64,000 nt of DNA from Iphinoe sp. HA4291-MV1 (GTDB taxonomy: Bacteria; Cyanobacteriota; Cyanobacteriia; Cyanobacteriales; Nostocaceae): NCBI GenBank assembly GCA_019359415.1, contig JAHHHH010000003.1:124001-188000 (forward strand). The letters run 5' to 3'. Shown in pieces: positions 17,220 through 40,721 of this stretch (position 1 is its first letter; each line of letters starts with the position of its first letter). A model generated the notes under the pieces. The model had not been told where the DNA came from. It ran no database searches and saw nothing but the letters and a program-made list of their open reading frames with translations. The translations under genes and the position numbers were made by a program.

Positions 17220-18518
17220 GTGCGTACTTTCATTATCGTCTGGCTCGGTCAAACTGTTTCTATCATTGGCAGTAACATGACCGCATTTGCTTTCACTATC
17301 TGGGTATGGCAACTCACGGATCAGGTTACAGCGTTAGCATTGTTTGGTTTCTTTAAACAAGTGCCGCAAGTCTTAATTACTTCCATCGCTGGGGTGATTG
17401 TGGATCGCTGGAACCGTAAATACTTAATAATGCTTAGCGACACGGTCAGCGGGCTGTTGACGATTATAGTCTTACTGCTTTACATAACTCATAATTTGCA
17501 ATTATGGCATCTCTACGTGGCTGTAGGTGTCAAAGGGACTTTTGAGCAAATTCAAGAACTTGCATTCTCGGCATCAATATCCATGATGGTACCTAAGCCG
17601 CAGTATAGTCGCGCTAGCAGCATTGGCTTCCTGGCAAATTCCAGTTCTGTTATCATCGCACCAGCATTGGCAGGTGTTCTGTACACAGTCATTGGTCTTG
17701 TTGGTATTTTAATTATCGATATCACGACTTTTGTGATTGCAGTCAGCACACTGCTACTAGTACGTATCCCACAACCTAGTCTTGTACAAGCAGAAACGCA
17801 AAGTCACACAGACCTGAAGCAGGAACTTTACTTTGGCTGGCACTATATTACCGCACGCCCCAGTCTGCTTGCTATGTTAGCATTGATGTCGCTGTTCTGG
17901 TTTGCCTATAATCTTAGCAATTCACTTTCCTCTCCCCTGATTTTGGCACGCAGTGGTAATGATACCAAAGTATTAGGTATTGTATCTTCGGCAGCAGGAA
18001 TAGGCGGCATTATTGGGGCATTACTCATGAGCGCTTGGGGTGGTCCCAAGCCCCGGATACATGGAGTGTTGTTGGGTATGGTGGGTGCTGGCTTGAGCCG
18101 AACAGTGTTTGGTCTGGGGGTAATGCCGTTGATTTGGATTCCTGCCCAATTTTGTTCATCTCTCAATTTTCCAATACTTGGCAGCGCCAGTGACACTATC
18201 TGGCTAACCAAGGTTAAACCAGAGGTACAAGGGCGTGTTTTCGCCACGCACTCTCTAGTTGTGCTGGTTGCTTCGGCAGTAGGTACTTTAATTGCTGGGC
18301 CATTAGCCGACTACGTTTTTGAACCTGCGATGATGCCGAATGGTAGTCTCGCCCCCATATTGGGTTGGATATTTGGCACCGGAGGTGGTGCAGGTATTGC
18401 ACCTCTATATGTCATTTGTTCGCTAGGTATGTTGCTTGTTGGCTTAGGTGGATATGCCTTCCGCACGCTGCGTGATGTAGAAATCATCCTGCCAGACCAT
18501 GATGCCAGTGCTGGGTAG
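17220..18518 (+). CDS. MFS transporter, EntS-like siderophore exporter candidate
   Basis: 432 residues with about 12 hydrophobic segments. The start is GTG at 17220 because the protein then begins RTFIIVWLGQTVSIIGS, the usual beginning of EntS/macrolide-efflux type MFS proteins, and no ATG gives that. The signature loop IAGVIVDRWNRKYLIMLSD after helix 2 is present. It sits between PepSY and the Suc_Fer gene (6 to 51 bp before the next start), in the receptor run. EntS-like MFS proteins in such loci export the newly made siderophore. The substrate is inferred from context only. Confidence 0.9.
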   Translation: MRTFIIVWLGQTVSIIGSNMTAFAFTIWVWQLTDQVTALALFGFFKQVPQVLITSIAGVIVDRWNRKYLIMLSDTVSGLLTIIVLLLYITHNLQLWHLYVAVGVKGTFEQIQELAFSASISMMVPKPQYSRASSIGFLANSSSVIIAPALAGVLYTVIGLVGILIIDITTFVIAVSTLLLVRIPQPSLVQAETQSHTDLKQELYFGWHYITARPSLLAMLALMSLFWFAYNLSNSLSSPLILARSGNDTKVLGIVSSAAGIGGIIGALLMSAWGGPKPRIHGVLLGMVGAGLSRTVFGLGVMPLIWIPAQFCSSLNFPILGSASDTIWLTKVKPEVQGRVFATHSLVVLVASAVGTLIAGPLADYVFEPAMMPNGSLAPILGWIFGTGGGAGIAPLYVICSLGMLLVGLGGYAFRTLRDVEIILPDHDASAG

Positions 18519-18569
18519 TCGATTATGAGGTGTTTAAGGAGTTTTGAATCGTTTCATTCGGAAGTGAAC

Positions 18570-19574
18570 ATGATTGCCCAAGATTCTGTAAATAATTGCC
18601 GTTTCTGTTGTGTTGTCTCTAAAGCTAATGGTGAAGATCCCATCGGCTCAGCACCCACTTATGAACACTGGTTGGCTCTGGAGATGGAACTTCCTTGGAC
18701 TGAAAAACGTTGGCAGGAACATCCTGTGCTCAGGAGCGCGATCGCTCTCATCGAAAAGCTAATTTTTGAGCATGGGATCAAGATTCGAGGTCAGCTACTC
18801 GTTCCAGATAGCGAATACTCTCGTCCTGGTTACACTCGCGTACTATATTACCGCCGACCTGCAAAGCTCTTTGCGAAGTTTGAACAGCATGAGTTTATCA
18901 TCCCTGATTCTGAAGTTGGCTCTTTCGTGATGGCGTTATTGGAAACATTGCTTCACTCGCCAAAAAAGGTGCTTGATTGGGAGCAGTATCGTCAACAATC
19001 CAGTCAGATTCGTGAGTTAATGGTGTGTACTGATGGTAATGTTGACGTAGCCTGTGCCCGGTTTGGTTATCCCATCTATCGCAAGTTGCGCTCTGAATTT
19101 GCTACTGCTTCCAATGGACAACTGCGTGTATGGCGATGCAGCCATTTCGGGGGACACCAGTTCGCACCCACACTGATTGACTTACCTTATGGACACTACT
19201 GGGGTCATTTGCAGCCCGAAATATTGGAACTCCTGGTTCGGCATAATGGCTCCGTCACAGGGCTATACCCGTTCTACCGAGGTTGGGCTGGTTTATCTAA
19301 GTTTGAGCAAATCGTGGAACGAGAGATATGGATGCAAGAAGGTTGGGACTGGCTCAATTATCACAAATCGGGTCAAGTGCTAGCGAGCGATGAAGTTAAC
19401 CAGAACTGGGCTAATATTCGCATTGATTTCACCACGACAGATGGAAGTATGAGGAGCGCCTATGAAGCCAGAGTGGAAGTCAACGGCTCTGTAATGACTG
19501 CTTGGAATTCAGCAGATGAGCAACCATTAGAAGAAGTGAAGCAGTATCGCCTCAGTCGTCTGGTCAAAAACTAG
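18570..19574 (+). CDS. Sucraseferredoxin-like (Suc_Fer) family protein
   Basis: About 334 residues from the ATG at 18570, which has GGAAG a few bases upstream and yields the usual N-terminus before CRFCCVVSKANGEDPIGSA. An in-frame ATG at 18525 would add 15 residues but lacks a ribosome site. The family is a thioredoxin-like ferredoxin. Visible hallmarks are VCTDGNVDVACARFGYP, with Cys ligand candidates, and RVWRCSHFGGHQFAPT with Cys/His. In cyanobacteria these genes often sit beside siderophore exporters and TonB receptors; a role in electron transfer to ferric siderophore is plausible but unproven. It is the last of four closely spaced genes. Confidence 0.85.
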   Translation: MIAQDSVNNCRFCCVVSKANGEDPIGSAPTYEHWLALEMELPWTEKRWQEHPVLRSAIALIEKLIFEHGIKIRGQLLVPDSEYSRPGYTRVLYYRRPAKLFAKFEQHEFIIPDSEVGSFVMALLETLLHSPKKVLDWEQYRQQSSQIRELMVCTDGNVDVACARFGYPIYRKLRSEFATASNGQLRVWRCSHFGGHQFAPTLIDLPYGHYWGHLQPEILELLVRHNGSVTGLYPFYRGWAGLSKFEQIVEREIWMQEGWDWLNYHKSGQVLASDEVNQNWANIRIDFTTTDGSMRSAYEARVEVNGSVMTAWNSADEQPLEEVKQYRLSRLVKN

Positions 19575-24234: not shown

Positions 24235-26829
24235 ATGAGTAGGCTCGTTGTTTTAAGCTTAGGTCAGGGAAACCTGCAAGAGGGCTATGCCACGGTAACG
24301 GCACAGCTTGGAGAAGCAGACAACCCCCCCTACTGGATGAAATTTACTGCCAGCTTAAGTGCTGCACCAAAAATTTCTGAACTCTACCAAAATTGGCAGT
24401 TAATTTATTATGCTTTTTATCAACGTTTGAGTTGGCGTCTCGGTAACGAAATAGATGATAATTTTGAAATTGAGGAAGGTTATATAACTAATATTTCAGA
24501 AGCTGATATTAATAGCTTGAGTCATCTGTTGTCAAAAAAGATGAATGCATGGCTCAACTCAACAAAATTTCGCAAAATAGACCAGCAATTACGCACACAA
24601 TTAAAACCCTCTGAAGAGATTCGCTTTATTATTGAAACCAACGACAATTTACTGCGACGACTCCCTTGGCATTTGTGGGATTTCTTTGAGGATTACCCAT
24701 ATGCAGAAGTGGCGTTGAGTGCGGCAGAGTACCAAAACCCAAAGAAATTGATTGTAAATAATTACAGAGGTCAAGTTAGAATTTTAGCAGTTTTTGGAAA
24801 TAGTCAAGGAATTGATATTAGTTATGATAAAACTCTTTTAGAGAAATTATCAAATCAAGCAGAAATTAAATTTTTATTAGAGCCAAATCTGGGTCATTTA
24901 AACGAGCAGCTATGGCAACAAAGTTGGGATATTCTCTTTTTTGCTGGTCACAGTTGCAGTAAAGAAAAAGGTTTTTTACAAATCAATCAAACAGACACAA
25001 TTACCCTTGAGCAATTAAAATATGCTCTTAGGCAAGCTATTAGTCGTGGGTTAAAGCTAGCGATTTTCAACTCCTGCGATGGTTTAGGGTTGGTACAGCA
25101 ACTCCAGGATTTGCACATTCCACAAGTGATTGTTATGCGTGAGCCTGTGCCGGATGTAGTAGCTCAAGAATTTTTAAAGTATTTTCTGGCTGAATTTTCG
25201 CGTGGAAAGTCTTTATATACTGCAGTACGTTCTGCACGCGAAAGATTGCAAGGATTAGAGGGGGAATATCCTTGTGCTACATGGCTACCAGTCATTTTCC
25301 AGAATCCTGCTGAACCACCAATGGTTTGGTCACAGCAAAATGTATGGACAAAATGGAAAGAAAAGACAGACTCCTCAATACTGACTTTCACTGGAAACGT
25401 CAAAGGTGTGCAAACAAACATCCGATTGCCAGTAGCAACTTCAGTGCACTGCAAAACAACGGCTCTCGATTCACTTATTGAGATAGTAAATGGCAGGCTG
25501 CTGGAATTCCAGAATCAACCTCTCAATCACACAGAAATTATACTTTTACGAGGTATTTGGCAAAGTCAGACTTACAATCAAATTGCTCAACAGGGAGGTT
25601 ATAGTTCAAGCTACTTTACTAACGTCGTTGCCCCAGGATTGTCCCAAAAATTGTCTCATCTCATCGGCAGACGTGTGACTAAAAAAAACTGTCGAACGTT
25701 ACTAGAGTCGTATATGACTGCACAAGCTTCTCCAAAAACAATACAACTAGGACAAAATTCTCCTGTAAGCTATTTTCCCAATTCCCAGCAGGAAATGTCA
25801 CCTCGCTTTCCTAGTGGTTTAGTTCCGCTTGGCTCCCCTTATTACATTGAACAACCAGAAATTGCAACACAGGTTTATGAAGAAATTATTAACCCAGGAG
25901 CCTTAATTCGCATTAAAGCTCCTCAGGAAATGGGTAAAACCTCACTGCTGTTGAGGATTCTGGAGTATGTTAACCGCATGGGTTATCATACAGTGAGCTT
26001 GAACTTGCAGGAGCAAGTTGATCGAGCCATTTTGAGCGATTTAAATCGTTTTTTGCGTTGGTTGTGCGCTAACGTCTCTCGTCAGCTTGAACTTGAACCA
26101 AAATTAGACGAGTATTGGGATGAAGATATTGGTAGCAAAGTCAGCTGCTCCCTTTATTTACGTAATTATGTGTTAGAGCAGATTGATTCTCCTTTAGTTT
26201 TGGCGTTGGACGAAGTGAACCAGATTTTTGAGCATCCGCAAGTGGCAAAAGAATTCTTACCCTTGTTGCGTTCCTGGTACGAAGATGCCAAAAGACAACC
26301 TATTTGGCAAAAGCTGCGCCTCATTGTGGCTCACTCAACTGAAGTTTATGTTCCTCTCCAGCTTCATCAGTCCCCATTTAATGTAGGACTGCCAATTCAG
26401 TTGACTTGTTTTAGTTTAGATCAGATGCAGCAATTAGCCCAGCGTTTTGGACTCAATTGGACCGATGGTGAGGAAGCAAGGCTGCTAATGGATATGGTTG
26501 GAGGACATCCTGCATTAGTACACCTCGCACTTTATCACCTCAGTCGTGGAGAGATCACTTTAGTGCAACTGCTGCAAAATGCTTCTACACCTAAAGGCAT
26601 TTATTACCATCATATGCAGCGTCATTGGGCAACTTTGCAGGCGCAGCCAGAATTAGCATCTGCTGTTTTTATGGTGATGAACACTACCGAACCTGTAAGG
26701 TTAGAACCTATTATTGCTTATAAGTTAAGCAGTATGGGGCTGATTAAGTTAGATAACAATCTTGCTACTCCCAGTTGTCAGTTGTATCGGCAGTATTTTC
26801 AACCAAAATTCCTCACTGCGGCAAGCTAA
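24235..26829 (+). CDS. CHAT caspase-like protease fused to HTH and AAA_35 ATPase domain
   Basis: 864 residues. Residues about 170-365 form a CHAT domain with the catalytic pair His239 (FAGHS) and Cys281 (NSCDG). Residues about 415-500 (ILLRGIWQSQTYNQIA to VTKKNCRTLLE) resemble the winged/HTH domain found at the start of cyanobacterial vWA/AAA_35 proteins. Residues about 530-860 are an AAA_35-type NTPase, with P-loop APQEMGKTSLL (Lys568) and LVLALDEVNQIF as Walker B. The first ~165 residues are not recognised. CHAT proteases act in bacterial conflict or cell-death systems; here the ATPase would sense or switch. A hydrolase-like gene follows 46 bp later, probably in the same transcript. Function is inferred from domain types. 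Confidence 0.88.
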   Translation: MSRLVVLSLGQGNLQEGYATVTAQLGEADNPPYWMKFTASLSAAPKISELYQNWQLIYYAFYQRLSWRLGNEIDDNFEIEEGYITNISEADINSLSHLLSKKMNAWLNSTKFRKIDQQLRTQLKPSEEIRFIIETNDNLLRRLPWHLWDFFEDYPYAEVALSAAEYQNPKKLIVNNYRGQVRILAVFGNSQGIDISYDKTLLEKLSNQAEIKFLLEPNLGHLNEQLWQQSWDILFFAGHSCSKEKGFLQINQTDTITLEQLKYALRQAISRGLKLAIFNSCDGLGLVQQLQDLHIPQVIVMREPVPDVVAQEFLKYFLAEFSRGKSLYTAVRSARERLQGLEGEYPCATWLPVIFQNPAEPPMVWSQQNVWTKWKEKTDSSILTFTGNVKGVQTNIRLPVATSVHCKTTALDSLIEIVNGRLLEFQNQPLNHTEIILLRGIWQSQTYNQIAQQGGYSSSYFTNVVAPGLSQKLSHLIGRRVTKKNCRTLLESYMTAQASPKTIQLGQNSPVSYFPNSQQEMSPRFPSGLVPLGSPYYIEQPEIATQVYEEIINPGALIRIKAPQEMGKTSLLLRILEYVNRMGYHTVSLNLQEQVDRAILSDLNRFLRWLCANVSRQLELEPKLDEYWDEDIGSKVSCSLYLRNYVLEQIDSPLVLALDEVNQIFEHPQVAKEFLPLLRSWYEDAKRQPIWQKLRLIVAHSTEVYVPLQLHQSPFNVGLPIQLTCFSLDQMQQLAQRFGLNWTDGEEARLLMDMVGGHPALVHLALYHLSRGEITLVQLLQNASTPKGIYYHHMQRHWATLQAQPELASAVFMVMNTTEPVRLEPIIAYKLSSMGLIKLDNNLATPSCQLYRQYFQPKFLTAAS

Positions 26830-26875
26830 ATATTGGATTGCACAAGTTCGTAGCGAAGAAAAATTTGAATTGAAG

Positions 26876-27691
26876 ATGAGTCAACAAAAGCCAATCAAAA
26901 TTAAAAGAGGTTTTGTCGAGCTAGAATGCGGCCAGGTACATTACCGAACGGTAGGAAATGGTTCTACACTAGTGCTACTCCACAAAACTTACTTCTCGTC
27001 GCGTAGTTTTATTAGGTTAATGCCGCTACTAGCTGGTGAATTTCGGGTGATTGCACTAGATATTCCAGGACAAGGAGAATCTGACAATCCACCCATGCAG
27101 TGGAATATTCCGCAGTATGCTGTAGCTGTATTGAACGTACTAGACACATTAGATATTGACAAGTTTAATCTAGTGGGAAACAGCACTGGGGCAGCAATTG
27201 CTTGTGAAGCAGCAGTAATCTCTGCGTCCCGGATCAAAAAGTTGGTACTGTTTGGAATGCCACGTTGGAAAGACAAAGCAGCACGTGATACTTTACGACA
27301 ATCGAAATTTTTTTACGGACCCCCAGATGTCAAAGAAGATGGCAGCCATTACACTACTAACTGGCAGCGGATTAAACAACAGTGGTCAGGCTATCCTCCT
27401 GAATGTTTTGAAATATATTTCCAAGAAGTAATGTCTCGTAAACATCGTACTTATGAGGGAATAGAAGCAGTTTTAAGGTACGACGAAGCCAGCCGCCTAC
27501 CACTGATATCGGTTCCTACTTTATTGATGTGGGCTAAGGACGATACCATGTTTACGCCTTTTATTGAGGATACAGCCCGGTTAGTTCCGCACGCTATCAC
27601 AAAGGTTCTCAATAGCAACGCTTTGATGTACCTACGTGATCCAGAACTTTACGCTGCAACTTTACTTGAATACTTGCAGTCTCAAGATTGA
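26876..27691 (+). CDS. Alpha/beta-hydrolase fold protein, catalytic His apparently missing
   Basis: About 271 residues from the ATG at 26876; upstream in-frame starts lie inside the CHAT gene. The fold is shown by TLVLLHKTYFSSRSF, VIALDIPGQGESD, nucleophile elbow GNSTGA (Ser) and LMWAKDDTMF (acid). The usual C-terminal GHxxxxExP box reads LNSNALMYLRDPELYA, with Ala where the catalytic His belongs. The HG oxyanion motif is HK. It may therefore be an inactive or altered hydrolase, perhaps a binding partner or protease target of the CHAT protein directly upstream; that link is speculation from the 46-bp spacing. Confidence 0.82.
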   Translation: MSQQKPIKIKRGFVELECGQVHYRTVGNGSTLVLLHKTYFSSRSFIRLMPLLAGEFRVIALDIPGQGESDNPPMQWNIPQYAVAVLNVLDTLDIDKFNLVGNSTGAAIACEAAVISASRIKKLVLFGMPRWKDKAARDTLRQSKFFYGPPDVKEDGSHYTTNWQRIKQQWSGYPPECFEIYFQEVMSRKHRTYEGIEAVLRYDEASRLPLISVPTLLMWAKDDTMFTPFIEDTARLVPHAITKVLNSNALMYLRDPELYAATLLEYLQSQD

Positions 27692-28125: not shown

Positions 28126-31100
28126 ATGACTAACATAATTCCAAAGTCCATTCTGACTGTTCGTCAAGAAGAGCTATCAAATACTCAGATGATTGTTGAT
28201 GGAACACTACCAGATGATTTGTCTGGTCATGTTTTTATCCTGGCTCCAGTCGGACATGTAGATTCTGAACGCGATGACACTCTTGTCTACCCATCCAGAA
28301 ATGGTACTCCACTGTTTAATGGCAATGGGATGATTTATCGGCTTGACTTTGATAAAGCTGGGACAGTGGGGTTACAATGCAAAATCGCCAAAACGCCATG
28401 CTACTATGCCGATGAAGCAACAAAACCAGGAACCAAAGACCAAGAGTATGGATTCCGCAATTTTGGCTTGGCGCGTCTGTCGATCTCATTAGGTGTTCGC
28501 AGTGTCGCAAATACAGCATTAGTGCCGATGAAATTTGGGGACGAAAATGAACGTATGCTAGTAACTTGTGATGTCGGTCGTCCCTACGAAATCGATACAC
28601 ATTCTCTTGAGGTTGTCACGCCTGTTGGATGGAACAAAGAGTGGAGAGAACAGTTACCACTCAATCTTCCTTTTGAAATGGTGATGAATACCGCGCATCC
28701 TTACTTTGATGCTCACACCAATGAGCTATTTACAGTGAATTACGGTAAGTCATTACCTACTTTTTTGTCCATTATCTTTAAATCAGATGTAGAAAAATTG
28801 CCACGAATCTTCAAAGCAACCATTGAAAGGTTTGCGAAGTTACTCGAAGGTAAGCAGAATATAAAAAGCTTAGAAATCGAAAAAGAAATTCCTGAAGAAA
28901 TTTTCAATAAAGAAACTGATGAGAGTCCGGAACGTCTCAACAGTTTTTGGCAAAGATTGCGAGAACTCCTCACAAAAGAGAAAGAAGAACTAAAACAACA
29001 AGAAACTGAAGAAAAAAAAGAAAATGCTCGCGAACTGTTAAATGAACTCAAGCAACTGATGGAAATCGTCAAGCAAATGCTGCAAGGATTGGATGAATTT
29101 GACGATTTTGTCTATTTGATTCGTTGGGACGGTAAAAATGAATTCACCAGATGGCAGGTAAAACTTCCTGATGGTTCGCCGATTAAAATTAGGCAAACAA
29201 TACATCAAATTGGGGTAACGCAGGATTATGTGGTGTTAATGGACACAGGTTTCAAAGTTGGTCCAGAGCAACTCATTACCAAACCAGTTATCAAGAATAA
29301 GAAGCTACAAAAACTGCTTAGAGATGTTCTAGATGAGCCAGTATCATCCGACGCCTACTTATATATTGTACGTCGTGCTGATCTACAAGCCGGAGAGCGC
29401 CCAGCATTGAGTCAGAATAACGTTGATATAATAGCACAACGGGTGGTGATACCTGGGGGAATCATTCATTTTCAGGTTGACTATGAAAATCCTCAAAACC
29501 AAATTACACTTCACGTTGCTCATAGTTCTGCTTGGGATGTGTCTGAATGGCTGCGGGAGTATGACATAACCTCTCTTTTCACTTCAAACTCAAACCGTCC
29601 GGTAGGAATGATGTCCGGTCCAGCAGATATCCACTCCTTAGGACGATATGTGATTGATGGCCAGAAAGGAGAACTGGATAATACACAGTCTAAGCTTATT
29701 TGCGATCGCGATTTGACTTGGGCTATTGCTATCAACGCTTACAATGAGCACGCCGCCTCGAAAAAATTCGACACTATCTACTGGAACTCTTGGGGATGTT
29801 CACCGGATCTGCTACCCGATTTCATTGCTAAGTTGTACGAAAATTCTCCTAATAGGAATTTACCGTTGGAGGAAGTTAAGAAAATTACACAAGAGAGCAG
29901 ACCTGCAAACATCTGTCGGCTAGTGACAGACTCTAAAGAATCAATGGCGATCGCTGACAATTACAAGTTCCAGCCAGGTTACTTTGGTAATTCAATTCAG
30001 TTTGTACCACGAACTCACAGTGACGGTAGCTCAACTGATGGTTATATCGCATGTACGGTTCTCTCTGATAACCCGCAAAAGAGCGAAATCTGGATTTTTG
30101 ACGCCAAGAATCTGAATCGAGGTCCACTTTGCAAGCTCAGCCATCCTCAACTCAAATTTGGATTTACCACCCATACCACTTGGTTACCCAAAATTGCACC
30201 CCGCACAACTGGCTACTACATTCCTGTGCGTGAAGACTATGAAGATCTGGTCAAACAACAGCATCCTGAAATCCAGAAACTGTTTGAGGAAGCCGTTTAT
30301 CCCAAATTTCCTCGAACAACCTGGACATCTGTTCCTGATTCCGTTATCAACGCTAGTCGGGAGGAACTCGACATCAAGCTGAATATTCTGGAGTCAAAAT
30401 TGCCCAGTGGAAAACTACCAGATGGACTACACGGTCACGTTTTCATCATGGGTCCAGTGGGTTCTGTCAATTCTGGTGGTCTTCCTTACCGCAATGGCGA
30501 TCCAATCTTCAATAGTGATGGCATGATTTACCGACTCGACTTTAATTATAAGGGAGAAGTTGGTTTGAAGACACGGATTACCAAACCGCCATGTTACTAC
30601 GCCGACATGGCAACTCAACCTGGAACGAAATATGCTAAGTATGGATTTCACAATTTTGGCATCTCGCGATTCTCCACTAAGCTCGGCTCTCGCAACCAGT
30701 TAAATACTGCTTTTGTACCTATTTATGGTGGAGAAGAACGCGTTGATCGCATGCTCATCACCTGTGATGCTGGTCGTCCCTATGAAATTGATACCGATAC
30801 CCTTGAAGTTATCACGCCTGTTGGAACAAACAAAGAGTGGCGTCCAGAAATTAAGTTGAATTTTCCGTTTCCACCTGTCTTAACCACAGCCCATCCCGCC
30901 TTTGATGCTCACACTCGTCAGGTATTCACCGTCAATTATGGTCGCTCATTATCTAATTTTCTCGAAACTATACCTTCCATTGAGGAGCTAGATAAATTTC
31001 TTGATGAAGTTGATGATTTTTTGGAAAAAGGCATTTTCAAAACCTTTTCTCAGGTTTCTGACAAACTTCGTCAATTTTTTGGCAGATTTGTTTCACCAGT

Positions 31101-32364
31101 TACCAACCTAGTACCTCAAGATTTTATTTATCTCATCCGTTGGGATGGTGTTGGTCATTTTGAGCGATGGAAGTTAGTGCTTCCGGATGGAACTCCGGTT
31201 CAAATTGAGCAATCTCTGCATCAGATTGGGATCACTAGAGACTATGTTGTCCTCATGGACACAAATTTCAAAGTTGGAATCGCTCAAGCATTCAACAATC
31301 TTTTTCCCAGGAATAAGAGAGTAGAGAGACTCACAAGAAAGTTACTCACACTGCCAGTATTACCTGATACTAAACTTTATATTGTCCGCCGTGCAGATCT
31401 GAAAGTCGGACAACGCCCAGAAGTGAGTCAGCAGGAAGTTAAAGTTGTAGCGCAGAAGTTGGTCATCCCAGAGGGTACAATTCACTTTGTATCAGATTAC
31501 GAGAATCCTCAAAACCAAATTACGTTTTACGCAACCCATAACAGTGCAGATGTTGCTGAATGGGTGCGCCAGAATGACAATTTAGCCTCTAACCCCGAAA
31601 CTCCTGTATCATCGAACCTAGTCGGTATGCTGACGAGTGTGACGGACGTTAGCCGTCTAGGTCGCTACGTTATAGATGGTGAACGCGGAGAGATTCTTGA
31701 GTCGAAGGTGTTGTATAATTCTAAATACACTTGGGGTGTTGGACTTTATACTTACTCTGACAGGTTACCAACAAGTCAACCTTCAGGGCAGCTAGAAAAT
31801 ATTTACTGGCAGTCCTCGGGATTTTGGCAAGAGCTATTTACAAAATTTATCTTCGACCTGTACAAAGATTATGAAGACCGGGTAGTGCTACCAGAGGAAC
31901 TTCTTCAAATAGGTTATGGACAAAGCAGACCCTCTTGTTTATTCCGTTTAGATACAAAATATATGGAGATTGCTGACGCCTATGAGTTTCCTGTCGTTTC
32001 TAAGGACGACAAACACTGGAACAGCTACATGGTTTTGTCTCCGCAGTTTGTACCCCGCGCTGACGGTGATGGTAGTTCAACTGATGGTTACGTTGTTTGT
32101 ACCGTTGCTTCAGAAGACCGCGATGAAATCTGGATTTTTGATGCCAAGAATCTTGCTCAAGGACCCCTTTGCAAACTTGGTCATCCCTTACTGAATTTTG
32201 GTTATACAATACACACAACCTGGTTACCAAAAATAGCACCGCGTACAGCTCATTATAACTGTCCCGTGCGCGAAGATTATCAAGACCAAGTCAAGAAAAA
32301 TTCTCAAGATATTCAGGATTTGTTTGAGACGGAAGTTTACCCATATTTTGGGAAACTCAGCTAG
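28126..32364 (+). CDS. Tandem (double) carotenoid oxygenase/RPE65-family protein
   Basis: A single 1412-codon frame holding two carotenoid-cleavage-oxygenase units: about 1-733 and 734-1412. Each has the entry motif (PDDLSGHVFILAP / PDGLHGHVFIMGP), NGMIYRLDF or DGMIYRLDF, and four iron-ligand His. These are 191, 360, 448 and 683 in unit one, and 923, 1032, 1120 and 1363 in unit two. Both end alike (HTTWLPKIAPRT ... VREDY). Each unit also has a charged helical insertion between the first and second His, about 110 residues (Glu/Lys-rich coiled coil) in unit one and about 55 in unit two. The family cleaves carotenoid or stilbene double bonds using non-heme Fe(II); ordinary members have one unit of about 450-550 residues. 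Substrate unknown. No stop or frameshift separates the units. Confidence 0.9.
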   Translation: MTNIIPKSILTVRQEELSNTQMIVDGTLPDDLSGHVFILAPVGHVDSERDDTLVYPSRNGTPLFNGNGMIYRLDFDKAGTVGLQCKIAKTPCYYADEATKPGTKDQEYGFRNFGLARLSISLGVRSVANTALVPMKFGDENERMLVTCDVGRPYEIDTHSLEVVTPVGWNKEWREQLPLNLPFEMVMNTAHPYFDAHTNELFTVNYGKSLPTFLSIIFKSDVEKLPRIFKATIERFAKLLEGKQNIKSLEIEKEIPEEIFNKETDESPERLNSFWQRLRELLTKEKEELKQQETEEKKENARELLNELKQLMEIVKQMLQGLDEFDDFVYLIRWDGKNEFTRWQVKLPDGSPIKIRQTIHQIGVTQDYVVLMDTGFKVGPEQLITKPVIKNKKLQKLLRDVLDEPVSSDAYLYIVRRADLQAGERPALSQNNVDIIAQRVVIPGGIIHFQVDYENPQNQITLHVAHSSAWDVSEWLREYDITSLFTSNSNRPVGMMSGPADIHSLGRYVIDGQKGELDNTQSKLICDRDLTWAIAINAYNEHAASKKFDTIYWNSWGCSPDLLPDFIAKLYENSPNRNLPLEEVKKITQESRPANICRLVTDSKESMAIADNYKFQPGYFGNSIQFVPRTHSDGSSTDGYIACTVLSDNPQKSEIWIFDAKNLNRGPLCKLSHPQLKFGFTTHTTWLPKIAPRTTGYYIPVREDYEDLVKQQHPEIQKLFEEAVYPKFPRTTWTSVPDSVINASREELDIKLNILESKLPSGKLPDGLHGHVFIMGPVGSVNSGGLPYRNGDPIFNSDGMIYRLDFNYKGEVGLKTRITKPPCYYADMATQPGTKYAKYGFHNFGISRFSTKLGSRNQLNTAFVPIYGGEERVDRMLITCDAGRPYEIDTDTLEVITPVGTNKEWRPEIKLNFPFPPVLTTAHPAFDAHTRQVFTVNYGRSLSNFLETIPSIEELDKFLDEVDDFLEKGIFKTFSQVSDKLRQFFGRFVSPVTNLVPQDFIYLIRWDGVGHFERWKLVLPDGTPVQIEQSLHQIGITRDYVVLMDTNFKVGIAQAFNNLFPRNKRVERLTRKLLTLPVLPDTKLYIVRRADLKVGQRPEVSQQEVKVVAQKLVIPEGTIHFVSDYENPQNQITFYATHNSADVAEWVRQNDNLASNPETPVSSNLVGMLTSVTDVSRLGRYVIDGERGEILESKVLYNSKYTWGVGLYTYSDRLPTSQPSGQLENIYWQSSGFWQELFTKFIFDLYKDYEDRVVLPEELLQIGYGQSRPSCLFRLDTKYMEIADAYEFPVVSKDDKHWNSYMVLSPQFVPRADGDGSSTDGYVVCTVASEDRDEIWIFDAKNLAQGPLCKLGHPLLNFGYTIHTTWLPKIAPRTAHYNCPVREDYQDQVKKNSQDIQDLFETEVYPYFGKLS

Positions 32365-32527: not shown

Positions 32528-35500
32528 ATGATTACAATTCCTGGCATTGAAGTCACCGCTCACATCTACGAAAGTGCCAGTACTCTAGTTTATCGAGGTA
32601 TCCGAGATCAGGATAAAAAACCTGTTATTCTCAAGGTTTTGAACAAGGAATATCCCACTCCGGAAGAACTGACTAGGTACAAGCAGGAATTTGAAATAAT
32701 GAGCTTGTTAGATATATCTGGAGTAGTAAAGGCATACGCCTTAGTCAAATATCAGAGAACTTTAGTCATTATCTTGGAGGATTTTGGTGGCGAATCTTTA
32801 AGAATATTAAGAGATACCAGAAAGTTAACACTGGCAGAATTTATCTTAATCGCCATACAAACTATTGATAGTTTAGCAAGAGTACACTCTGCTAAAATTA
32901 TCCACAAAGATATTAACCCTTCCAATATCGTTTGCAATTCAGAAAACAGGGAAATCAAGCTTATTGATTTTGGTCTTTCTACAGTTTTTTTCCAAGAAAA
33001 TTTCAGTCTTAAAAGTGTTGATACTTTAATTGGTACTCCAGCCTATGTTTCGCCAGAATTAACTGGTAGAATGAATTGCTCATTCGATTATCGTACTGAT
33101 TTCTACTCTCTGGGAGTCACTTTTTATGAACTACTAACCAATCAACTGCCTTTTGCAACAACTGATTTGATGGAGTTAGTACATTGTCATATTGCTAAAC
33201 AACCTGTACCTCCTCATGAAGTCAAACCAGAAATTCCTCTGGCGATTTCCAATATTGTTATGAAACTATTAGCGAAAAATGCTGATGATAGATATCAAAA
33301 TGCTTGGGCAATTAAAGCAGATTTAGAAGAAAGTTTACTCCAACTCCGGGCTAACGGTAAAATTTCAAATTTACCTATCGCTCGCCAAGATATTTCTAGT
33401 AAGTTTCAAATTTTTCAAAAACTATATCACAGGGAGCGAGAAATTGAAACTTTACTGACGGCATTTAAGAGAGTCAGTGATGGAAACCATCATACGGCTC
33501 CTAGAAGTGAAATGATGCTGATATCTGGATATTCGGGCGTTGGGAAATCAACGTTGGTTCAAGAAGTTTATAAATTCCTGACTCAGCAGCAAAGTTATTT
33601 CATTTCTGGTAAGTTTGACGAATTTTCTCGCAATATTCCTTATTCAGGATTGATTCAAGCTTTTCGTGAATTAATCAAGCAACTGTTAACCGAAAGTGAA
33701 TCACAGATTCACCTATGGAGAGAAAAATTGTTAGAAGCATTTGGACCTAATGGTCAAATGCTTATTGATGTCATCCCTGAAGTAGAATTAATTGTTGGCA
33801 AACAATCGTCAATTCCTGTATTGCCGTCGAAAGAATTTCAAAATCGCTTTCATCTAATATTTCAAAACTTTATTCAAGTTTTCACTCAACCAGAACATCC
33901 GCTGGTTCTATTTCTGGATGATTTACAGTGGGTAGATAGTGCTTCACTGCAATTGATACAACTGCTGATGACAGCGGTGAATAATCAATATTTGCTTTTC
34001 ATTGGTGCGTACCGCGATAATGAAGTGAATGCAAATCATCCATTGATACTGACGTTAGATAAAATCCAAAAATCAGGAACTATTGTAAATTTTCTTCACC
34101 TTTATCCCTTAGATTTGCAAAATGTTAATCAGTTAATTGCAGATACCTTCAATTGCTCTTTAGAGAGAGGAAAACCCTTGACAGAATTAATTCTTTGTAA
34201 AACGAATGGTAATCCTTTCTTTATCAACCAGTTTTTGCAATCCCTTTATCAAGAAAAATTATTATACTTTGATTCCTCTTCTCTTACTTATAAGGGGGAA
34301 TGGCAATGGAATTTAGAGCAAATTCAAGCGTGCAGCTTTACCGATAATGTTGTTGAACTCATGGTTAGCAAGATTCAAAAATTATCCCCTGATACGCAAG
34401 AGGTATTGAAGCTGGCAGCTTGCATCGGTCATCAATTTGATATTCAGACTATAGCAAATGTCAATAAGAAATTACCAGGAGAAATATTGATATTGCTGCA
34501 TGAAGTAGTTGCAGAAGGTTTCGTTTTGCCCTTGAAAGATGCCTACAAGTTGATTGATCCAAATTTGTCACAACAAACAGAGCATAATATCAAGGATGAA
34601 TACAAGTTTGCCCATGACAGAATTCAGCAAGCAGCATATTCTTTGATTTCGCCAGAGTACAGAAGCGTCATCCACCGAGAAGTGGGTAAACTGCTGCTGC
34701 AAAATACTCCACCAGATAAGCGGGAACGGAATATCCTTGATATCGTCAACCAATTGAATTTGAGCATTGAATTAATTAATAGTCAGTCAGAGCGAGATGA
34801 ATTGGCTGTGCTTAATTTAACGGCTGCTCAAAGAGCGAAAGGGTCAGTTGCTTATGAACCAGCATTGAGATACCTGCAAATTGGTATAGAATTGTTGGCA
34901 GAAAATAGCTGGCAGAGGCAGTATGATTTAATGTTGGCGTTGTCTGTGGAAGCAACAGAAGCAGCATATCTCAGCACTAATTTTGAGGAAATGGAGAGAT
35001 TAGCTGAGGTGGTACTGTGTAACGCTAAAACTTTGCTGGACACAGTAAAAGTCTATGAAATTAAAATCCAAGCTTATATGGCACAGAATCAGCCACTGCA
35101 AGCTTTAAAGATTGTGCTACCAGTAGTGAAATCTTTGGGAGTGAGATTCCCGGAAAAACCGAATCAATGGAATATTTTGCTTGGTTTACTAAGGACAAAG
35201 ATATCTTTAGCAGGACACCAAATTGAAGACTTAATTGACTTACCGGAAATGAGCGATTTCTACAAACTCGCAGTAATAGACTTACTAGCTAGAGTCAGAG
35301 TTGCGGCATATCTGGCTTCTCCTCAACTATACTCACTCATTGTATTTAAAGAAATTAATTTAGTAGTCAAATATGGAAATACTTTTGACTCTGCTTTTGT
35401 CTATGCTGCTTACGGTATGATTCTCTGTGGAGTCGTGGGAGATATTGATTCTGGGTATCAATTTGGTCAACTTGCTTTAAAATATTTAGAAAAATTAAAG

Positions 35501-38005
35501 ATGAAACGTAAAGAAAACAGGGAATTGCATCTTATTAATGGCTTTATCAGACACTGGAAAGAGCATGGAAACCAAACATTACGACCGCTGGCAGAAGCCT
35601 ATAAAATAGGAATAGAAAGTGGAGATTTTGAATTTTGCAGTTACTCTGCATTTATGCATTGTTTCAATGCATATTGTGTTAGTGAAAAATTGAGAGAAAT
35701 AGAACAACAAATATGCTCATACAATGATGCTATTGAGAAGCTAAAACAACGAACTATATTGAATTATTTGAAAATCTTACATCAAGCGATTTCACAATTA
35801 ATGGATAAATCTGAGGGTGAGTCTTCTGGCAAATTAATGGGTGAATTTTACAACGAAGAAAGAATGCTTCCGATTCATCTTGAAGTTAACGATCAAACCG
35901 CAATTTGCAATGTGTATTTACACAAAATGATCCTCTGTTATTTATTTCAGGATTACCCTCAAGCTATTGAAAATGCAACTATACTTCAAAAGTATTTAGC
36001 GAGTGTTACAGCGTCACTCCTTGTTCCTCTATTCTATCTCTATGATTCTTTGGCGCGACTTGCCGTTTTTGGTGATGTTCCTGAATCAGAACAAAAACGC
36101 CTCTTGAAGCAAGTTACTAATAACCAGAAGAAAATGAGGAAATGGGCACATCATGCTCCGATGAATTATCTACACAAATTTTATCTAGTGGAGGCTGAAC
36201 GCGATCGCGTGTTGGGCAAAGATCAAGAGGCTAGGGAATATTACGATCGCGCTATTGCTTTAGCACACGAAAATGAATATGTCAACGAAGAAGCCCTCGC
36301 CTACGAACTAGCAGCCAGGTTTTATTTAGACAGAAACCAAGATCATGTTGCTCGCCACTATCTGCAAGATGCTCACTATGCTTATCAACTCTGGGGGGCT
36401 ACAGCCAAAGTCAAAGACTTGGAAGCGCAATACCCACAATTTCTAAGTCAAGCCAATAAAGATCATCTTAAGACGACTTTATCCACTTCGACTACGGGGC
36501 AAAATACATCCCATGTCTTAGATTTTTCCAGTGTACTAAAAGGATCACAAACGATTTCTGGCGAAATCATTCTAGACAAGTTGTTAGCAAAGTTGATGAA
36601 AATCGTGATTGAGAATGCAGGAGCACAAAAAGGCTTCCTGATTCTGCATTCCCAGACAGAGTCAGGGAACGAGGAGGATAACTGGGTTATCGAAGCAGCA
36701 GGAACTGTAGATTCTGATGAAGTTACCATCCTGCAATCAATACCAGTAGACTCAGTAGATACCGACACTTCATATCCTCTCTTATCAGCCGCCATCATCA
36801 ACTATGTCGCCCGCACTCAGGAAAATGTGGTCTTAAATGATGCTGTCCATGAAGGACAATTTACCCGCAACTCCTACATTGTCACCACTCAGCCCAGATC
36901 CATTCTCTGCACTCCTCTATTGTATAAAGCCAAACTCAGCGGCATTTTATATTTGGAAAATAATCTTACAACAAGCGCGTTTACTCCAGAACGTGTCGAA
37001 GTCTTAAGAATCCTTTCTGCTCAAGCCGCCATCTCAATTGAAAATTCCCGTCTCTACGAGCAGTTAGAGGGTTATAGCCGAACTCTAGAACAAAAAGTGA
37101 AGGAAAGAACTCAAGAATTAGAACAGAAGAATCAGGAGTTAGCAAATCTCCTGCAAAAGCTCAAGGCTACTCAAGCTCAGATTATCGCACAAGAGAAATT
37201 AGCTTCTCTTGGAGCTTTGACAGCAGGCATTGCTCATGAAATCAAAAATCCCTTAAACTTTGTTAACAACTTTGCTGAACTTTCTGTAGAATTAACCCAG
37301 GAACTGCTCGAAGAGATTGAAAATCAAAAAGACCGACTAGAACCAGAATCTAGAGAATACATAGAAGAAATATTAAATGATCTTAAACAAAACACTAAAA
37401 AAATCAATGAGCATGGTACAAGAGCAGATAATATAGTGCGTGGGATGCTCATGCACTCACGGGGGCAAACTGGCGCTCGACAATTGATTGACATCAATGC
37501 TTTGCTAGCAGAGGCTATTAGTTTAACATATCACGGAATGCGTGCCAAAGACGCTTCCTTCAACATCATCATAGAAACTGAATATGATGATGATCTTGGT
37601 CAAACGAGTGTTGTGCCGCAGAGTATGAGTCGTGCTTTTATAAATATCATTAATAACGCCTGTTATGCAGCGTTTAAAAAGAAAATGCGTTTTCATGCTG
37701 AACCTGGGCATGAAGATGAGGGATTTTCGCCTACGCTTTTTGTGAGGACTAAAAATTTGGTTGAGCAGGTAGAGATACACATCCGAGATAACGGTGAAGG
37801 CATTTCTCAGGAAGTGCTAGATAAGATTTTTAATCCTTTTTTCACCACTAAGCCACCTGGCGAAGGAACTGGTTTGGGTTTATCTATTACTTATGATATT
37901 ATTGTCCAGCAGCATCAAGGAGATATCAGGGTGGAAACAGAAACAAGTAATTATACAGAGTTTATCATGACTCTACCAAAGTTGTTCCCTAAAAAAGAGA
38001 TTTAA
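32528..38005 (+). CDS. Giant Ser/Thr kinase - AAA ATPase - GAF - sensor histidine kinase
   Basis: 1825 residues. The Hanks-type kinase (1-275) has H126-K-D128 in HKDINPSN and D147-F-G. The AAA_16-like ATPase (about 300-560) has GYSGVGKSTL (Lys340) and LVLFLDDLQWVD. A long helical TPR-like region (about 650-1300) is followed by a GAF domain (about 1340-1500). A coiled coil leads to HisKA with His1570 in GIAHEIKNPLN and HATPase_c with RDNGEGIS and GTGLGLS. All catalytic motifs of both kinases are intact. This architecture is common in filamentous cyanobacteria but its signal is unknown. The receiver gene starts 2 nt after its stop, so the two are almost certainly co-expressed partners. Confidence 0.95.
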   Translation: MITIPGIEVTAHIYESASTLVYRGIRDQDKKPVILKVLNKEYPTPEELTRYKQEFEIMSLLDISGVVKAYALVKYQRTLVIILEDFGGESLRILRDTRKLTLAEFILIAIQTIDSLARVHSAKIIHKDINPSNIVCNSENREIKLIDFGLSTVFFQENFSLKSVDTLIGTPAYVSPELTGRMNCSFDYRTDFYSLGVTFYELLTNQLPFATTDLMELVHCHIAKQPVPPHEVKPEIPLAISNIVMKLLAKNADDRYQNAWAIKADLEESLLQLRANGKISNLPIARQDISSKFQIFQKLYHREREIETLLTAFKRVSDGNHHTAPRSEMMLISGYSGVGKSTLVQEVYKFLTQQQSYFISGKFDEFSRNIPYSGLIQAFRELIKQLLTESESQIHLWREKLLEAFGPNGQMLIDVIPEVELIVGKQSSIPVLPSKEFQNRFHLIFQNFIQVFTQPEHPLVLFLDDLQWVDSASLQLIQLLMTAVNNQYLLFIGAYRDNEVNANHPLILTLDKIQKSGTIVNFLHLYPLDLQNVNQLIADTFNCSLERGKPLTELILCKTNGNPFFINQFLQSLYQEKLLYFDSSSLTYKGEWQWNLEQIQACSFTDNVVELMVSKIQKLSPDTQEVLKLAACIGHQFDIQTIANVNKKLPGEILILLHEVVAEGFVLPLKDAYKLIDPNLSQQTEHNIKDEYKFAHDRIQQAAYSLISPEYRSVIHREVGKLLLQNTPPDKRERNILDIVNQLNLSIELINSQSERDELAVLNLTAAQRAKGSVAYEPALRYLQIGIELLAENSWQRQYDLMLALSVEATEAAYLSTNFEEMERLAEVVLCNAKTLLDTVKVYEIKIQAYMAQNQPLQALKIVLPVVKSLGVRFPEKPNQWNILLGLLRTKISLAGHQIEDLIDLPEMSDFYKLAVIDLLARVRVAAYLASPQLYSLIVFKEINLVVKYGNTFDSAFVYAAYGMILCGVVGDIDSGYQFGQLALKYLEKLKMKRKENRELHLINGFIRHWKEHGNQTLRPLAEAYKIGIESGDFEFCSYSAFMHCFNAYCVSEKLREIEQQICSYNDAIEKLKQRTILNYLKILHQAISQLMDKSEGESSGKLMGEFYNEERMLPIHLEVNDQTAICNVYLHKMILCYLFQDYPQAIENATILQKYLASVTASLLVPLFYLYDSLARLAVFGDVPESEQKRLLKQVTNNQKKMRKWAHHAPMNYLHKFYLVEAERDRVLGKDQEAREYYDRAIALAHENEYVNEEALAYELAARFYLDRNQDHVARHYLQDAHYAYQLWGATAKVKDLEAQYPQFLSQANKDHLKTTLSTSTTGQNTSHVLDFSSVLKGSQTISGEIILDKLLAKLMKIVIENAGAQKGFLILHSQTESGNEEDNWVIEAAGTVDSDEVTILQSIPVDSVDTDTSYPLLSAAIINYVARTQENVVLNDAVHEGQFTRNSYIVTTQPRSILCTPLLYKAKLSGILYLENNLTTSAFTPERVEVLRILSAQAAISIENSRLYEQLEGYSRTLEQKVKERTQELEQKNQELANLLQKLKATQAQIIAQEKLASLGALTAGIAHEIKNPLNFVNNFAELSVELTQELLEEIENQKDRLEPESREYIEEILNDLKQNTKKINEHGTRADNIVRGMLMHSRGQTGARQLIDINALLAEAISLTYHGMRAKDASFNIIIETEYDDDLGQTSVVPQSMSRAFINIINNACYAAFKKKMRFHAEPGHEDEGFSPTLFVRTKNLVEQVEIHIRDNGEGISQEVLDKIFNPFFTTKPPGEGTGLGLSITYDIIVQQHQGDIRVETETSNYTEFIMTLPKLFPKKEI

Positions 38006-38007: not shown

Positions 38008-38382
38008 ATGAAAGTAATGGTTGTAGATGATGAACAAGACGTTCAGTTTTTATTTGAGCAAAAATTTAGAAGAGAACTAAAACAAAATCAAATTAGCTTG
38101 TTTTTTATCTTATCAGCAGAGGAAGCGCTGGAAAAAATACAAAGTCAAAGTCAGCTAATCAAATGCTTATCCCTGATATTGGCAGATATCAATATGCCTG
38201 GGATGAACGGGTTAGAGCTACTCAAAATTATCAAAGAAAATTTTCCTCATTTGAAAGTCTTTATCATTACTGCTTATGACGATGAATATAATTTCTCAAT
38301 AGCTAAAAAATATGGGGCTGATGAGTATATTACAAAGCCAATTGAATTTGACAAACTTAAGAAAAAAATCTTAAATTTGTGA
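38008..38382 (+). CDS. Single-domain response regulator
   Basis: 124 residues forming one receiver domain: acidic VVDDEQD near the start, phospho-acceptor Asp in LADINMPGMNG, ITAYDDEYN and the Lys of YITKPIEFD. No output domain. It follows the histidine kinase stop by 2 nt, so it is the likely direct acceptor of its phosphate. It could act as a phosphate shuttle or bind a target protein. Confidence 0.93.
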   Translation: MKVMVVDDEQDVQFLFEQKFRRELKQNQISLFFILSAEEALEKIQSQSQLIKCLSLILADINMPGMNGLELLKIIKENFPHLKVFIITAYDDEYNFSIAKKYGADEYITKPIEFDKLKKKILNL

Positions 38383-38540: not shown

Positions 38541-40721
38541 ATGCCAGCTAAAATACTGGTTGTGGATGATGAGCCGGATTTAGAACCGCTACTTTGTCAG
38601 GCATTTAGAAAAAAAATTCGGCAAAAGCAATTTGAATTAATTTTTGCCCAAAATGGTTTAGAAGCTCTAGAAAAACTACAAGCAGAACCGGATATAGATA
38701 TCGTTTTAACCGATATCTATATGCCAGAAATGGATGGGCTAACTTTGCTCACTAAACTAAATGATTTATATCCTATCATCAAATCAGTTATTATTTCTGC
38801 CTATGGCGATATAGAAAATATCAGAACGGCAATGAATCGGGGTGCTTTTGACTTCCTGACTAAGCCGATTAATTTTCAGGATTTAGAAATTACGACTAAC
38901 AAAACTCTGCACCATGTGCAGCGAATGAAAGTAGCACACGAACAAGAGCGTTTAGCACAGCAGGCTCAAGCAGAATTATTAACTCGTTTACAACAAGAGG
39001 TGACTGAACGCCAGCGAGCAGAGGAAGCACTGCGCGAAAGTGAGGGAAGGTTGGCTCAATTTCTGGAAGCTGTGCCAGTGGGGGTATTTGTCATTGATGC
39101 CAATGGTCAATCCTACTATACCAATCAAAGGGCACAGCAGATACTTGGTAAGGAAATTGTCACCGAAGTGACAGCCACTCAATTTCCTGAGATTTATCAA
39201 GCTTATCTAGCAGGGACAAAGGAGTTATACCCCTTTGAACAGCAACCCATTTTGCGAGCACTGAACGGTGAAAGTGTAACCATCGATGATATAGTGCTCC
39301 ACCAAGCTGACAAAATTATTCCTCTAGAGGTGTCAGCTACCCCAATTTATGATGAGAAGGGCGAGATTATCTATGCCATAGCTGTCTTTTCTAATATCAC
39401 CCAACGCAAACAGGCGGAAGCTGAACGGATTCAGTTTACTCAAGAACTAGCAGGCAAAAATGCAGCCTTACAACAGGCAAAAGACGCATTAGCCGAGTCC
39501 AACCGCACTTTGGAACAAAAAGTCGAGGAGCGGACTTGCGAACTCTCTCAAACACTAGAAATTTTGAAAGCGACTCAAGCTGAACTGGTTTTTGAAAACG
39601 CTTTGCTCAGGAGTGCAGAACAATCCTCAACTTTTGATTATCAAGTTGGGGGTAGTTTGCCGATGAATGCTCCTACATATGTGGTGCGCTCTGCAGATCG
39701 TCTCTTCTATCAAGCACTGAAGCGTGGAGAGTTTTGTTACATTATGAATGCACGGCAGATGGGTAAGTCAAGCCTCATGGTACATATCATGCACCGTCTT
39801 CAGCAAGAAGGGTTTAGCTGTGCAGCGATTGATATCACTCGCCTTGGCACTGAAAACGTCACTCCTGCTCAATGGTACAAGGGATTTGCCGTGGAGTTAT
39901 GGCAAAATTTTAATTTATTTACAAAGGTGAATCTCAAAGCTTGGTGGAATGAGCAAAAAGATTTATCGTCTATTCAGTGCTTGAGTCAATTTATAGAGGA
40001 TATCATACTAGATCAGGTTAAGAGTGAAAAGATATTTATCTTTGTAGATGAAATTGATACTGTTTTGAGCCTGAATTTTCCTGTGAATGACTTTTTTGCT
40101 TTGATTCGCTTCTGCTTCAATCAGCGCAGTATTAATCCAGAGTATCAACGTTTAACTTTTGCTTTGTTTGGAGTAGCAACACCTTCAGATTTAATAACTG
40201 ATCACCAGAGAACGCCCTTCAATATTGGTCAAGCAATTCAACTCAATAGCTTTCAAATCCATGAAGCTCAACCTTTACTTTATGGATTGACAGAGAAAGT
40301 GAGCAATCCACAAGTTGTGCTGAAAGAAGTGTTAGCCTGGACAAGTGGTCAACCCTTTCTCACTCAAAAGCTTTGTAAACTCATACGTCGTTGTTCATCC
40401 CCTATTCCCACAAACCGTGAAGCCGAATGGGTTGAAAATTTGGTGCGAACTTGTGTTATAGACAATTGGGAATCTCAGGATGAGCCAGAGCATTTGAGAA
40501 CTATACGCGATCGCATTCTTAATAGTAAGCTAAAATCAGATCAGCTACTAGAAATATATCGACAAATTTTGTATCAAGGAGAAGTTGTCTCTGTTGATAA
40601 TCCAGAAGAAAAAGAGTTGCTGTTGTCAGGGTTAGTCGTCAAGCAACAAGATTTTTTAAAAGTGCATAACCGTATTTATCAATCAATATTTAATAATAAT
40701 TGGATTAATCTGCACTTATAA
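38541..40721 (+). CDS. Response regulator receiver - PAS - AAA_35 protein
   Basis: 726 residues. The receiver domain (about 1-125) has VVDDEPD, phospho-Asp in LTDIYMPEMDG and FLTKPINFQ. A coiled linker follows, then a PAS domain (about 165-290: FLEAVPVGVFVIDANG to AVFSNITQRKQAE) and a coiled coil (about 295-345). The last part is an AAA_35-type domain (about 365-720) with P-loop NARQMGKSSLM (Lys about 408) and IFIFVDEID as Walker B. No DNA-binding or cyclase output is seen, so the ATPase is the output. The same AAA_35 type occurs in the CHAT protein at 24235. It lies 158 bp after the lone receiver and is probably part of the same signalling set. Confidence 0.92.
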   Translation: MPAKILVVDDEPDLEPLLCQAFRKKIRQKQFELIFAQNGLEALEKLQAEPDIDIVLTDIYMPEMDGLTLLTKLNDLYPIIKSVIISAYGDIENIRTAMNRGAFDFLTKPINFQDLEITTNKTLHHVQRMKVAHEQERLAQQAQAELLTRLQQEVTERQRAEEALRESEGRLAQFLEAVPVGVFVIDANGQSYYTNQRAQQILGKEIVTEVTATQFPEIYQAYLAGTKELYPFEQQPILRALNGESVTIDDIVLHQADKIIPLEVSATPIYDEKGEIIYAIAVFSNITQRKQAEAERIQFTQELAGKNAALQQAKDALAESNRTLEQKVEERTCELSQTLEILKATQAELVFENALLRSAEQSSTFDYQVGGSLPMNAPTYVVRSADRLFYQALKRGEFCYIMNARQMGKSSLMVHIMHRLQQEGFSCAAIDITRLGTENVTPAQWYKGFAVELWQNFNLFTKVNLKAWWNEQKDLSSIQCLSQFIEDIILDQVKSEKIFIFVDEIDTVLSLNFPVNDFFALIRFCFNQRSINPEYQRLTFALFGVATPSDLITDHQRTPFNIGQAIQLNSFQIHEAQPLLYGLTEKVSNPQVVLKEVLAWTSGQPFLTQKLCKLIRRCSSPIPTNREAEWVENLVRTCVIDNWESQDEPEHLRTIRDRILNSKLKSDQLLEIYRQILYQGEVVSVDNPEEKELLLSGLVVKQQDFLKVHNRIYQSIFNNNWINLHL

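Follow-up and report, generated by a model that had tools for sequence, protein, structure and literature searches.

The DNA analysed here, a stretch of 64,000 nucleotides from the cyanobacterium Iphinoe sp. HA4291-MV1 (contig JAHHHH010000003.1, positions 124,001 to 188,000; hereafter the window), carries at 28126..32364 on the + strand a single frame of 1412 codons, which runs from an ATG without an inner stop and is followed directly downstream by the gene of a giant kinase. In the protein of 1412 amino acids (aa) Pfam detected RPE65 only, at 241 bits against a cut-off of 27 and in three stretches, which places it in the RPE65/carotenoid cleavage dioxygenase (CCD) family. Profile matching divided it into unit 1 (residues 1-729, profile match 2-729; 28126..30312, +), a short linker delimited by the profile matches and the junction DNA (residues 730-733; 30313..30324, +) and unit 2 (residues 734-1409; 30325..32352, +), the two units being 46% identical over 750 columns. 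Judged from its sequence, the gene product is a fused pair of long-form carotenoid oxygenases, which agrees with an earlier sequence-only reading of this DNA that had described two RPE65/CCD units in one frame. Past position 30250 the first in-frame ATG, GTG or TTG is a TTG at 30400, about 25 codons inside unit 2; hence the junction offers no plausible start for unit 2 as a protein of its own.

A search of other genomes for CCD-CCD fusions, which the same reading had proposed as a check, found fused frames in nine genomes including the window's own (G000, G002, G005, G006, G007, G012, G727, G067 and G369). Five of these match at 81-84% identity, four from the same genus (G002, G005, G006 and G007) and one from the same family (G012); G727 belongs to the genus of G012, and G067 and G369 to other families of the order. 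G035 was left out of this count because its two units are two genes with stops between them, despite the open frame of 1518 first printed for it. The occurrence searches covered mainly cyanobacteria, together with plasmids, among which four records matched, one of them from Bacteroidota. The family census recovered the fusion in 7 of 218 genomes and the long-CCD subfamily in 40 of 218 at E<=1e-100. At E<=1e-30 the subfamily was found in 93 of the 388 genomes of the order sample, fused in G000, G067 and G369 among the matches listed, and at E<=1e-100 in 18 of the 386 genomes of the phylum sample, with the fused frame in G000 only. Within the genus, G001 and G003 gave no subfamily match at E<=1e-100, and G004 retains the CCD gene only as a broken, decayed remnant (L087, 8385-9476, +) beside a full-length kinase gene. 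Short exact patterns of the 1412-aa protein, searched against all bacterial and archaeal species, retrieved two close relatives. A long-CCD relative of 34% identity lies on a plasmid of Bernardetia (Bacteroidota; L191, 9010-11217, +), between glutamine synthetase III and enoyl-CoA hydratase-related genes.

The ratio of nonsynonymous to synonymous substitution rates (dN/dS) was computed for five pairs, the window against four relatives and two of these against each other. Across the whole protein it was 0.17-0.24; the two core parts of unit 1 gave 0.12-0.19, unit 2 gave 0.19-0.31 and the junction (residues 722-745) 0.08-0.25. These low values in both units imply that both halves are kept by purifying selection. 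Values for the insert that each unit carries between its first and second His scattered (0.14-0.43 in unit 1, 0.12-0.74 in unit 2) and lay above those of the cores in most pairs.

To place the iron ligands, a profile of 15 units was aligned with 14 ordinary cyanobacterial CCDs by hhalign (99.9% probability, E 3e-31), and 77 full-length units, drawn from the window and 59 further loci and some of them near-copies, were aligned with each other after exclusion of units covering <=550 profile positions (fragments in L076, L079, L087 and L136). The four His per unit that the sequence-only reading had named as ligands were all mapped in this way, so that eight of eight are accounted for: in unit 1 the predicted ligands 1 to 4 are H191 (28696..28698, +), H360 (29203..29205, +), H448 (29467..29469, +) and H683 (30172..30174, +), and in unit 2 they are H923 (30892..30894, +), H1032 (31219..31221, +), H1120 (31483..31485, +) and H1363 (32212..32214, +), each placed by both the profile and the 77-row alignment. 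Every one of the four ligand columns is His in 77/77 units, one row ending at a contig end before His 4. The third ligand is the His of the motif IHFxxDYENP, and another well conserved His stands 18 residues on; a fifth His near ligand 3 is kept in 71 of the 77 units. The occluding Thr position described in an excerpt of PMC12051055, which we read from the NT motif as T127 of unit 2 (alignment numbering), holds T in 72 units and I or V in the other five. The units therefore probably bind iron.

Typically, the four-His cluster of CCDs is surrounded by second-sphere carboxylates bound to three of the four His, as stated in the excerpt of PMC12051055, and an excerpt of PMC5133782 reports that their necessity was shown by mutagenesis. 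Concordantly, the ordinary CCDs of our comparison have Glu or Asp at all three second-sphere positions, in 14/14 sequences each. In the fused protein only the first of these is acidic in either unit, as Asp (D149, 28570..28572, +; D881, 30766-30768, +); the second is Thr (T531, 29716..29718, +; T1202, 31729-31731, +) and the third Ser (S623, 29992..29994, +; S1305, 32038-32040, +). The same pattern runs through the 77 units, with D at position 1 and S at position 3 in all of them and with T in 68, H in 3, S and N in 2 each, and L and P in 1 each at position 2, which is never acidic. Positions 1 and 3 are well anchored by hhalign and position 3 also by HMMER against solved structures; position 2 is placed less certainly, by profile alignment in a weakly conserved region. 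Furthermore, the long-CCD profile scored the Glu150Asp mutant of Synechocystis ACO (5kjb) above the wild type 2biw (43.1 vs 40.0 bits), as expected if a natural Asp sits at the position of Glu150. As the ligand columns are His and the second sphere is altered, iron binding looks kept and the surroundings of the iron changed throughout the set.

The linked kinase downstream of the fused gene (1825 aa; 32528..38005, +) comprises, according to Pfam, Ser/Thr kinase, AAA_16, GAF, HisKA and HATPase_c domains. Neighbours were counted at 61 long-CCD loci (2 + 19 + 40), the window not included, by a labelling scan with a few reference families; L087 among them holds a CCD remnant only, and L075 was omitted as it lies on the same contig as L037. 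A kinase gene lay within 600 bases downstream on the same strand in 42 of the 61 loci, whether these held single, paired or fused units, and within 600 bases of the other CCD end in four more, two of them divergent; in two loci the contig end was too near to judge. Several of the 19-locus set were known beforehand to carry the kinase. The 40 loci came from hit lists blind to neighbours, except L151, which was partly known beforehand and has no kinase, and this subset showed the kinase downstream in 29, on the other side in three, a contig end in two and none in six. As a control we used 20 loci of ordinary CCDs, namely that of the window's genome and 19 taken from the list of weak matches, and found a kinase within 600 bases in none; L185 has such a kinase 3 kb downstream, L186 shows, 96 bases upstream, a weaker match that is kinase-like, and the CCD frame of L173 has only 229 residues. 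In Fischerella sp. NIES-4106 a hypothetical protein of the long-CCD subfamily is followed 137 bases on by a serine/threonine protein kinase. All 22 kinases scanned contain Pkinase, AAA_16 and GAF, with AAA_35 in 11, HATPase_c in 4, HisKA in 3 and a cyclase domain in 3.

Full-length matches to this kinase number four in the window's genome, and each of its two long-CCD loci is directly followed by one of them; the other two lie in a YcaO cluster and without an evident partner. In the former (L189, contig C140) the same-type kinase is clustered with an AAA_35 protein, a YcaO protein and an amidohydrolase, and two short open frames between the genes give the impression of precursors of ribosomally synthesised and post-translationally modified peptides.

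The kinase tree resembles the CCD tree. In both, L080, the window genome's module with a single unit, clusters with L148, L081, L155 and L078, at a distance from the fused module that this genome also carries. Pairwise distances of CCDs and kinases correlated with r 0.64 over 43 loci, the largest value among 2000 permutations being 0.236, and the nearest relative was identical for both proteins in 30 of the 43. Two of the three unlinked kinases in the tree (L185 and L190) sit beside the linked kinase of L158, implying that partners can change.

In ten loci (L068, L069, L070, L071, L072, L073, L078, L161, L162 and L168) two adjacent genes replace the fusion, and L079 holds such a pair with the second gene cut short. 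In L068 and L069 the two open frames share a reading frame and are separated by 60 bases, which contain two and three stops, respectively. A tree built by a quick method, with Shimodaira-Hasegawa-like approximate likelihood ratio (SH-aLRT) support only and five of the 14 ordinary CCDs as outgroup, left out seven rows (both units of L075, L069 and L036, which are copies or near-copies, and L079). It united the fused units 1 in one branch (support 100) and the fused units 2 in another (support 70); in each branch L037 and L074 group together. Like fused unit 1, the first genes of L068, L071, L168, L161 and L162 lie near the base of the long-CCD tree, and their second genes fall into the same large branch as fused unit 2. 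In L072, L073 and L078 the first and second gene are mutually nearest, so these pairs look like later duplications of their own. On comparison of these sequences, an old gene pair followed by one fusion would be the simplest reading, by which this lineage came to carry the adjacent genes as one frame; gene transfer from family to family, or more than one fusion event, is a possible alternative. A second, different CCD-CCD fusion was seen in G400 (L077, 2505-6260, -), where one frame of 1252 aa holds a long CCD unit and then an ordinary CCD.

The sequence-only reading had also claimed a helical insertion between the first and second His of each unit. Since the H1-H2 spacing is 169 residues in unit 1 and 109 in unit 2, compared to 48-55 in the 14 ordinary CCDs, the insertions are real; their helical nature appears in low-confidence models only. 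The insert of unit 1 (residues 212-326; 28759..29103, +) has a net charge of -6 and that of unit 2 (residues 944-998; 30955..31119, +) of -4, and both are charged, amphipathic sequences in which no stretch is strongly hydrophobic. Among fused proteins the spacing is 160-176 in first units (n=7) and 109-121 in second units (n=7). Concordantly, it is 183-210 in the first gene of seven of the ten pairs (L068, L069, L071, L078, L161, L162 and L168) and 102-125 in second genes, but only 101-133 in the first genes of L070, L072 and L073; single units span 98-148, with L158 as the exception (185). A longer insert is therefore characteristic of the first unit in the majority of pairs and fusions, though not in every one. 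A correspondence with the membrane loop of RPE65 was considered and is no more than a guess, the excerpt of PMC9585964 locating the amphipathic helix at residues 107-125, in another place. It is likewise a guess that the insertions, which stand at the loop following His 1, serve to dock the protein on a membrane or a partner. Each unit was modelled with AlphaFold2 from six rows, drawn from the window, L036 and L037 sequences only. With the unit 1 model, all 41 Foldseek matches in the PDB at E<=0.001 were structures of the carotenoid oxygenase family; as TM-scores were 0.22-0.38, for a model with a predicted local distance difference test score (pLDDT) of 46, this supports the family and not the details, the fold probably being the seven-bladed propeller.

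Beyond the kinase, Pfam assigned a single-domain response regulator (124 aa; 38008..38382, +), relatives of which stand behind the kinase in L085, L086, L087 and L160, and a response regulator-PAS-AAA_35 protein (726 aa; 38541..40721, +). Upstream of the fused gene lies a gene for a CHAT-AAA_35 protein (864 aa; 24235..26829, +), with relatives upstream of part of the other loci. An alpha/beta hydrolase just upstream (26762-27691) was tried as a partner and discarded, as the label turned up at no other scanned loci than L143 and L188, where over 4 kb separate it from the CCD gene. Promoter- and terminator-like sites were no commoner in the window than in shuffled sequences, which gives no operon signal. 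Further upstream, 6016-19574 carries a nonribosomal peptide synthetase-like gene and TonB receptor, PepSY, MFS and sucrase/ferredoxin-like genes, which resemble a siderophore locus a few kb from the fused gene. At other long-CCD loci an adenylate/guanylate cyclase-AAA_16 protein is encoded upstream of the CCD (L153 and L157; broken frames in L152, a short match at the contig edge in L070). A flavin-containing amine oxidase-like gene stands directly downstream of the long CCD in L163 (9122-10468, +), L082 (10443-11885, +) and L159 (5896-7008, -); the CCDs of these three loci form one branch, and the kinase is upstream in L082 and L159.

That the long-form CCD gene usually adjoins one for a giant signalling kinase suggests a signalling system with a link to carotenoids. 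We put at roughly one in two the probability that the long-form CCD is a signalling partner of the kinase that makes, removes or reports a carotenoid-type ligand, with two such heads joined in the fused lineage. The CCD-kinase link itself is genetic and observed; the direction and the chemistry of the signal are our proposal. The long form would work with the kinase encoded next door, either making or removing an apocarotenoid-type ligand or reporting on the state of carotenoid, oxygen or iron, and relay of the signal would fall to the Ser/Thr kinase-AAA_16-GAF protein and its response regulators. The ligand or product would be a carotenoid or apocarotenoid, and the signal would be transferred to the kinase. 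The altered second sphere and the linked kinase gene, both of which the sequence-only reading had missed, argue for a signalling role more than for a double cut in metabolism.

Several observations weigh against the proposed signalling role. Catalysis may be weak or absent, as two of the three second-sphere acids appear to be gone in every unit, and the AlphaFold2 models are of low confidence (pLDDT 45 for unit 2, 46 for unit 1). No kinase was found nearby in 13 of the 61 loci, including a fusion (L037), and the relatives from Bernardetia and from a plasmid of Nostoc ATCC 53789 have no adjoining kinase in the stretches shown. Species kinship inflates the correlation of CCD and kinase distances, and the loci are related, so that counts are not independent. 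Moreover, adjacency of CCD and kinase says nothing about direction, and the amine oxidase-like gene downstream in three loci could speak for a metabolic role.

In its boldest form the signalling reading would describe a two-headed RPE65-fold receptor or signal maker with its kinase. Bacteria would then possess a signalling system devoted to carotenoids or apocarotenoids, with a carotenoid oxygenase of remodelled iron second sphere as its input module and with two non-equivalent sites provided by the fusion. We advance this form, which covers the signal maker as well as a sensor, tentatively and with some doubt. A non-catalytic sensor, which would have kept the fold and lost the chemistry, is conceivable but somewhat unlikely: its four-His iron site would bind oxygen, nitric oxide, iron or carotenoid, and occupancy would be passed to the kinase by contact. 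The uniform loss of two acids that are present in all 14 ordinary CCDs compared would be explained in this way, and the kinase adjoining the CCD in most loci and the cyclase-AAA_16 proteins upstream would fit as well; the retention of all four ligands and of the occluding position, however, is what one would expect with iron chemistry retained.

In the sequence-only reading the protein might be a pseudo-dimer, here taken as metabolic, which either cleaves a single long substrate in two places or passes an intermediate between its units. Two complete ligand sets, purifying selection on both halves, the separate adjacent genes of relatives and the amine oxidase-like gene in three loci are in line with it, and adjacent genes elsewhere that are fused here are compatible with joint action of both units. 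However, of the 60 loci that have full-length units, 43 contain just one, and many of these have the same kinase neighbour. A double cut of one substrate is possible and not favoured by any result here, and we regard the pseudo-dimer as unlikely. Still more improbable is an ordinary CCD enzyme that is merely a target of the neighbouring kinase and controlled through phosphorylation, since adjacency and co-inheritance of the two genes would be accounted for but the subfamily-wide change of the second sphere would be left unexplained. Finally, an assembly or frame artefact joining two genes, such as the missed stop between the units considered by the sequence-only reading, is practically negligible. 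G035 and G105 carry both genes in the same frame with stops between them, so that a misread stop could mimic a fusion, but the identical error would be required in all nine genomes and the junction is conserved with the low dN/dS given above.

Carotenoid oxygenases are metabolic enzymes whose products give rise to plant hormones and to the visual chromophore of animals. If the signalling reading is true, the co-inheritance of a CCD subfamily of changed iron surroundings with a giant kinase would define a bacterial carotenoid-linked signalling pathway testable gene by gene, and natural proteins would have dropped two of the three second-sphere acids for which a requirement in activity has been reported. 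Neither a CCD-CCD fusion nor a CCD beside such a kinase was found in the titles and abstract starts that our searches of the open-licence literature listed, which is weak evidence of absence. The CCD family and this type of kinase are established; the papers listed do not describe a long subfamily that combines a changed second sphere with tandem fusion and a kinase link.

The window's neighbour kinase, with Ser/Thr kinase, GAF and HisKA in one chain, has the domain make-up of the cbSTKIII kinases, such as HstK of Anabaena, in the excerpt of PMC2176072. According to that excerpt, expression of HstK depends on the nitrogen source, and Pkn40 and Pkn41 show an iron-related induction; the excerpt mentions no carotenoid oxygenase. 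Unlike this type, 3 of the 22 scanned kinases match HisKA and 4 HATPase_c, with 11 matching AAA_35. Among the carotenoid cleavage oxygenases (PF03055), Synechocystis ACO (2biw), Neurospora CAO1 and the stilbene dioxygenase NOV1 have the four His in the same order as here, and the long CCDs share similar N- and C-terminal motifs and the occluding Thr position with them; all 23 solved-structure sequences matched by the long-CCD profile at E<=0.01 are named as the CCD family or its dioxygenases. The ACO mutant Glu150Asp is like the long CCDs at the first second-sphere position only, and is a laboratory mutant of a single-unit enzyme. Compared to ordinary CCDs, the long form has single-unit open frames mostly of ~670-800 residues, an H1-H2 spacing of 98-210 instead of 48-55, a second sphere of Asp, mostly Thr, and Ser, and a kinase neighbour, and here two units in one chain. 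This last feature, two RPE65 domains in one chain, is shared by the fusion of G400 (L077), whose second domain is of the ordinary type.

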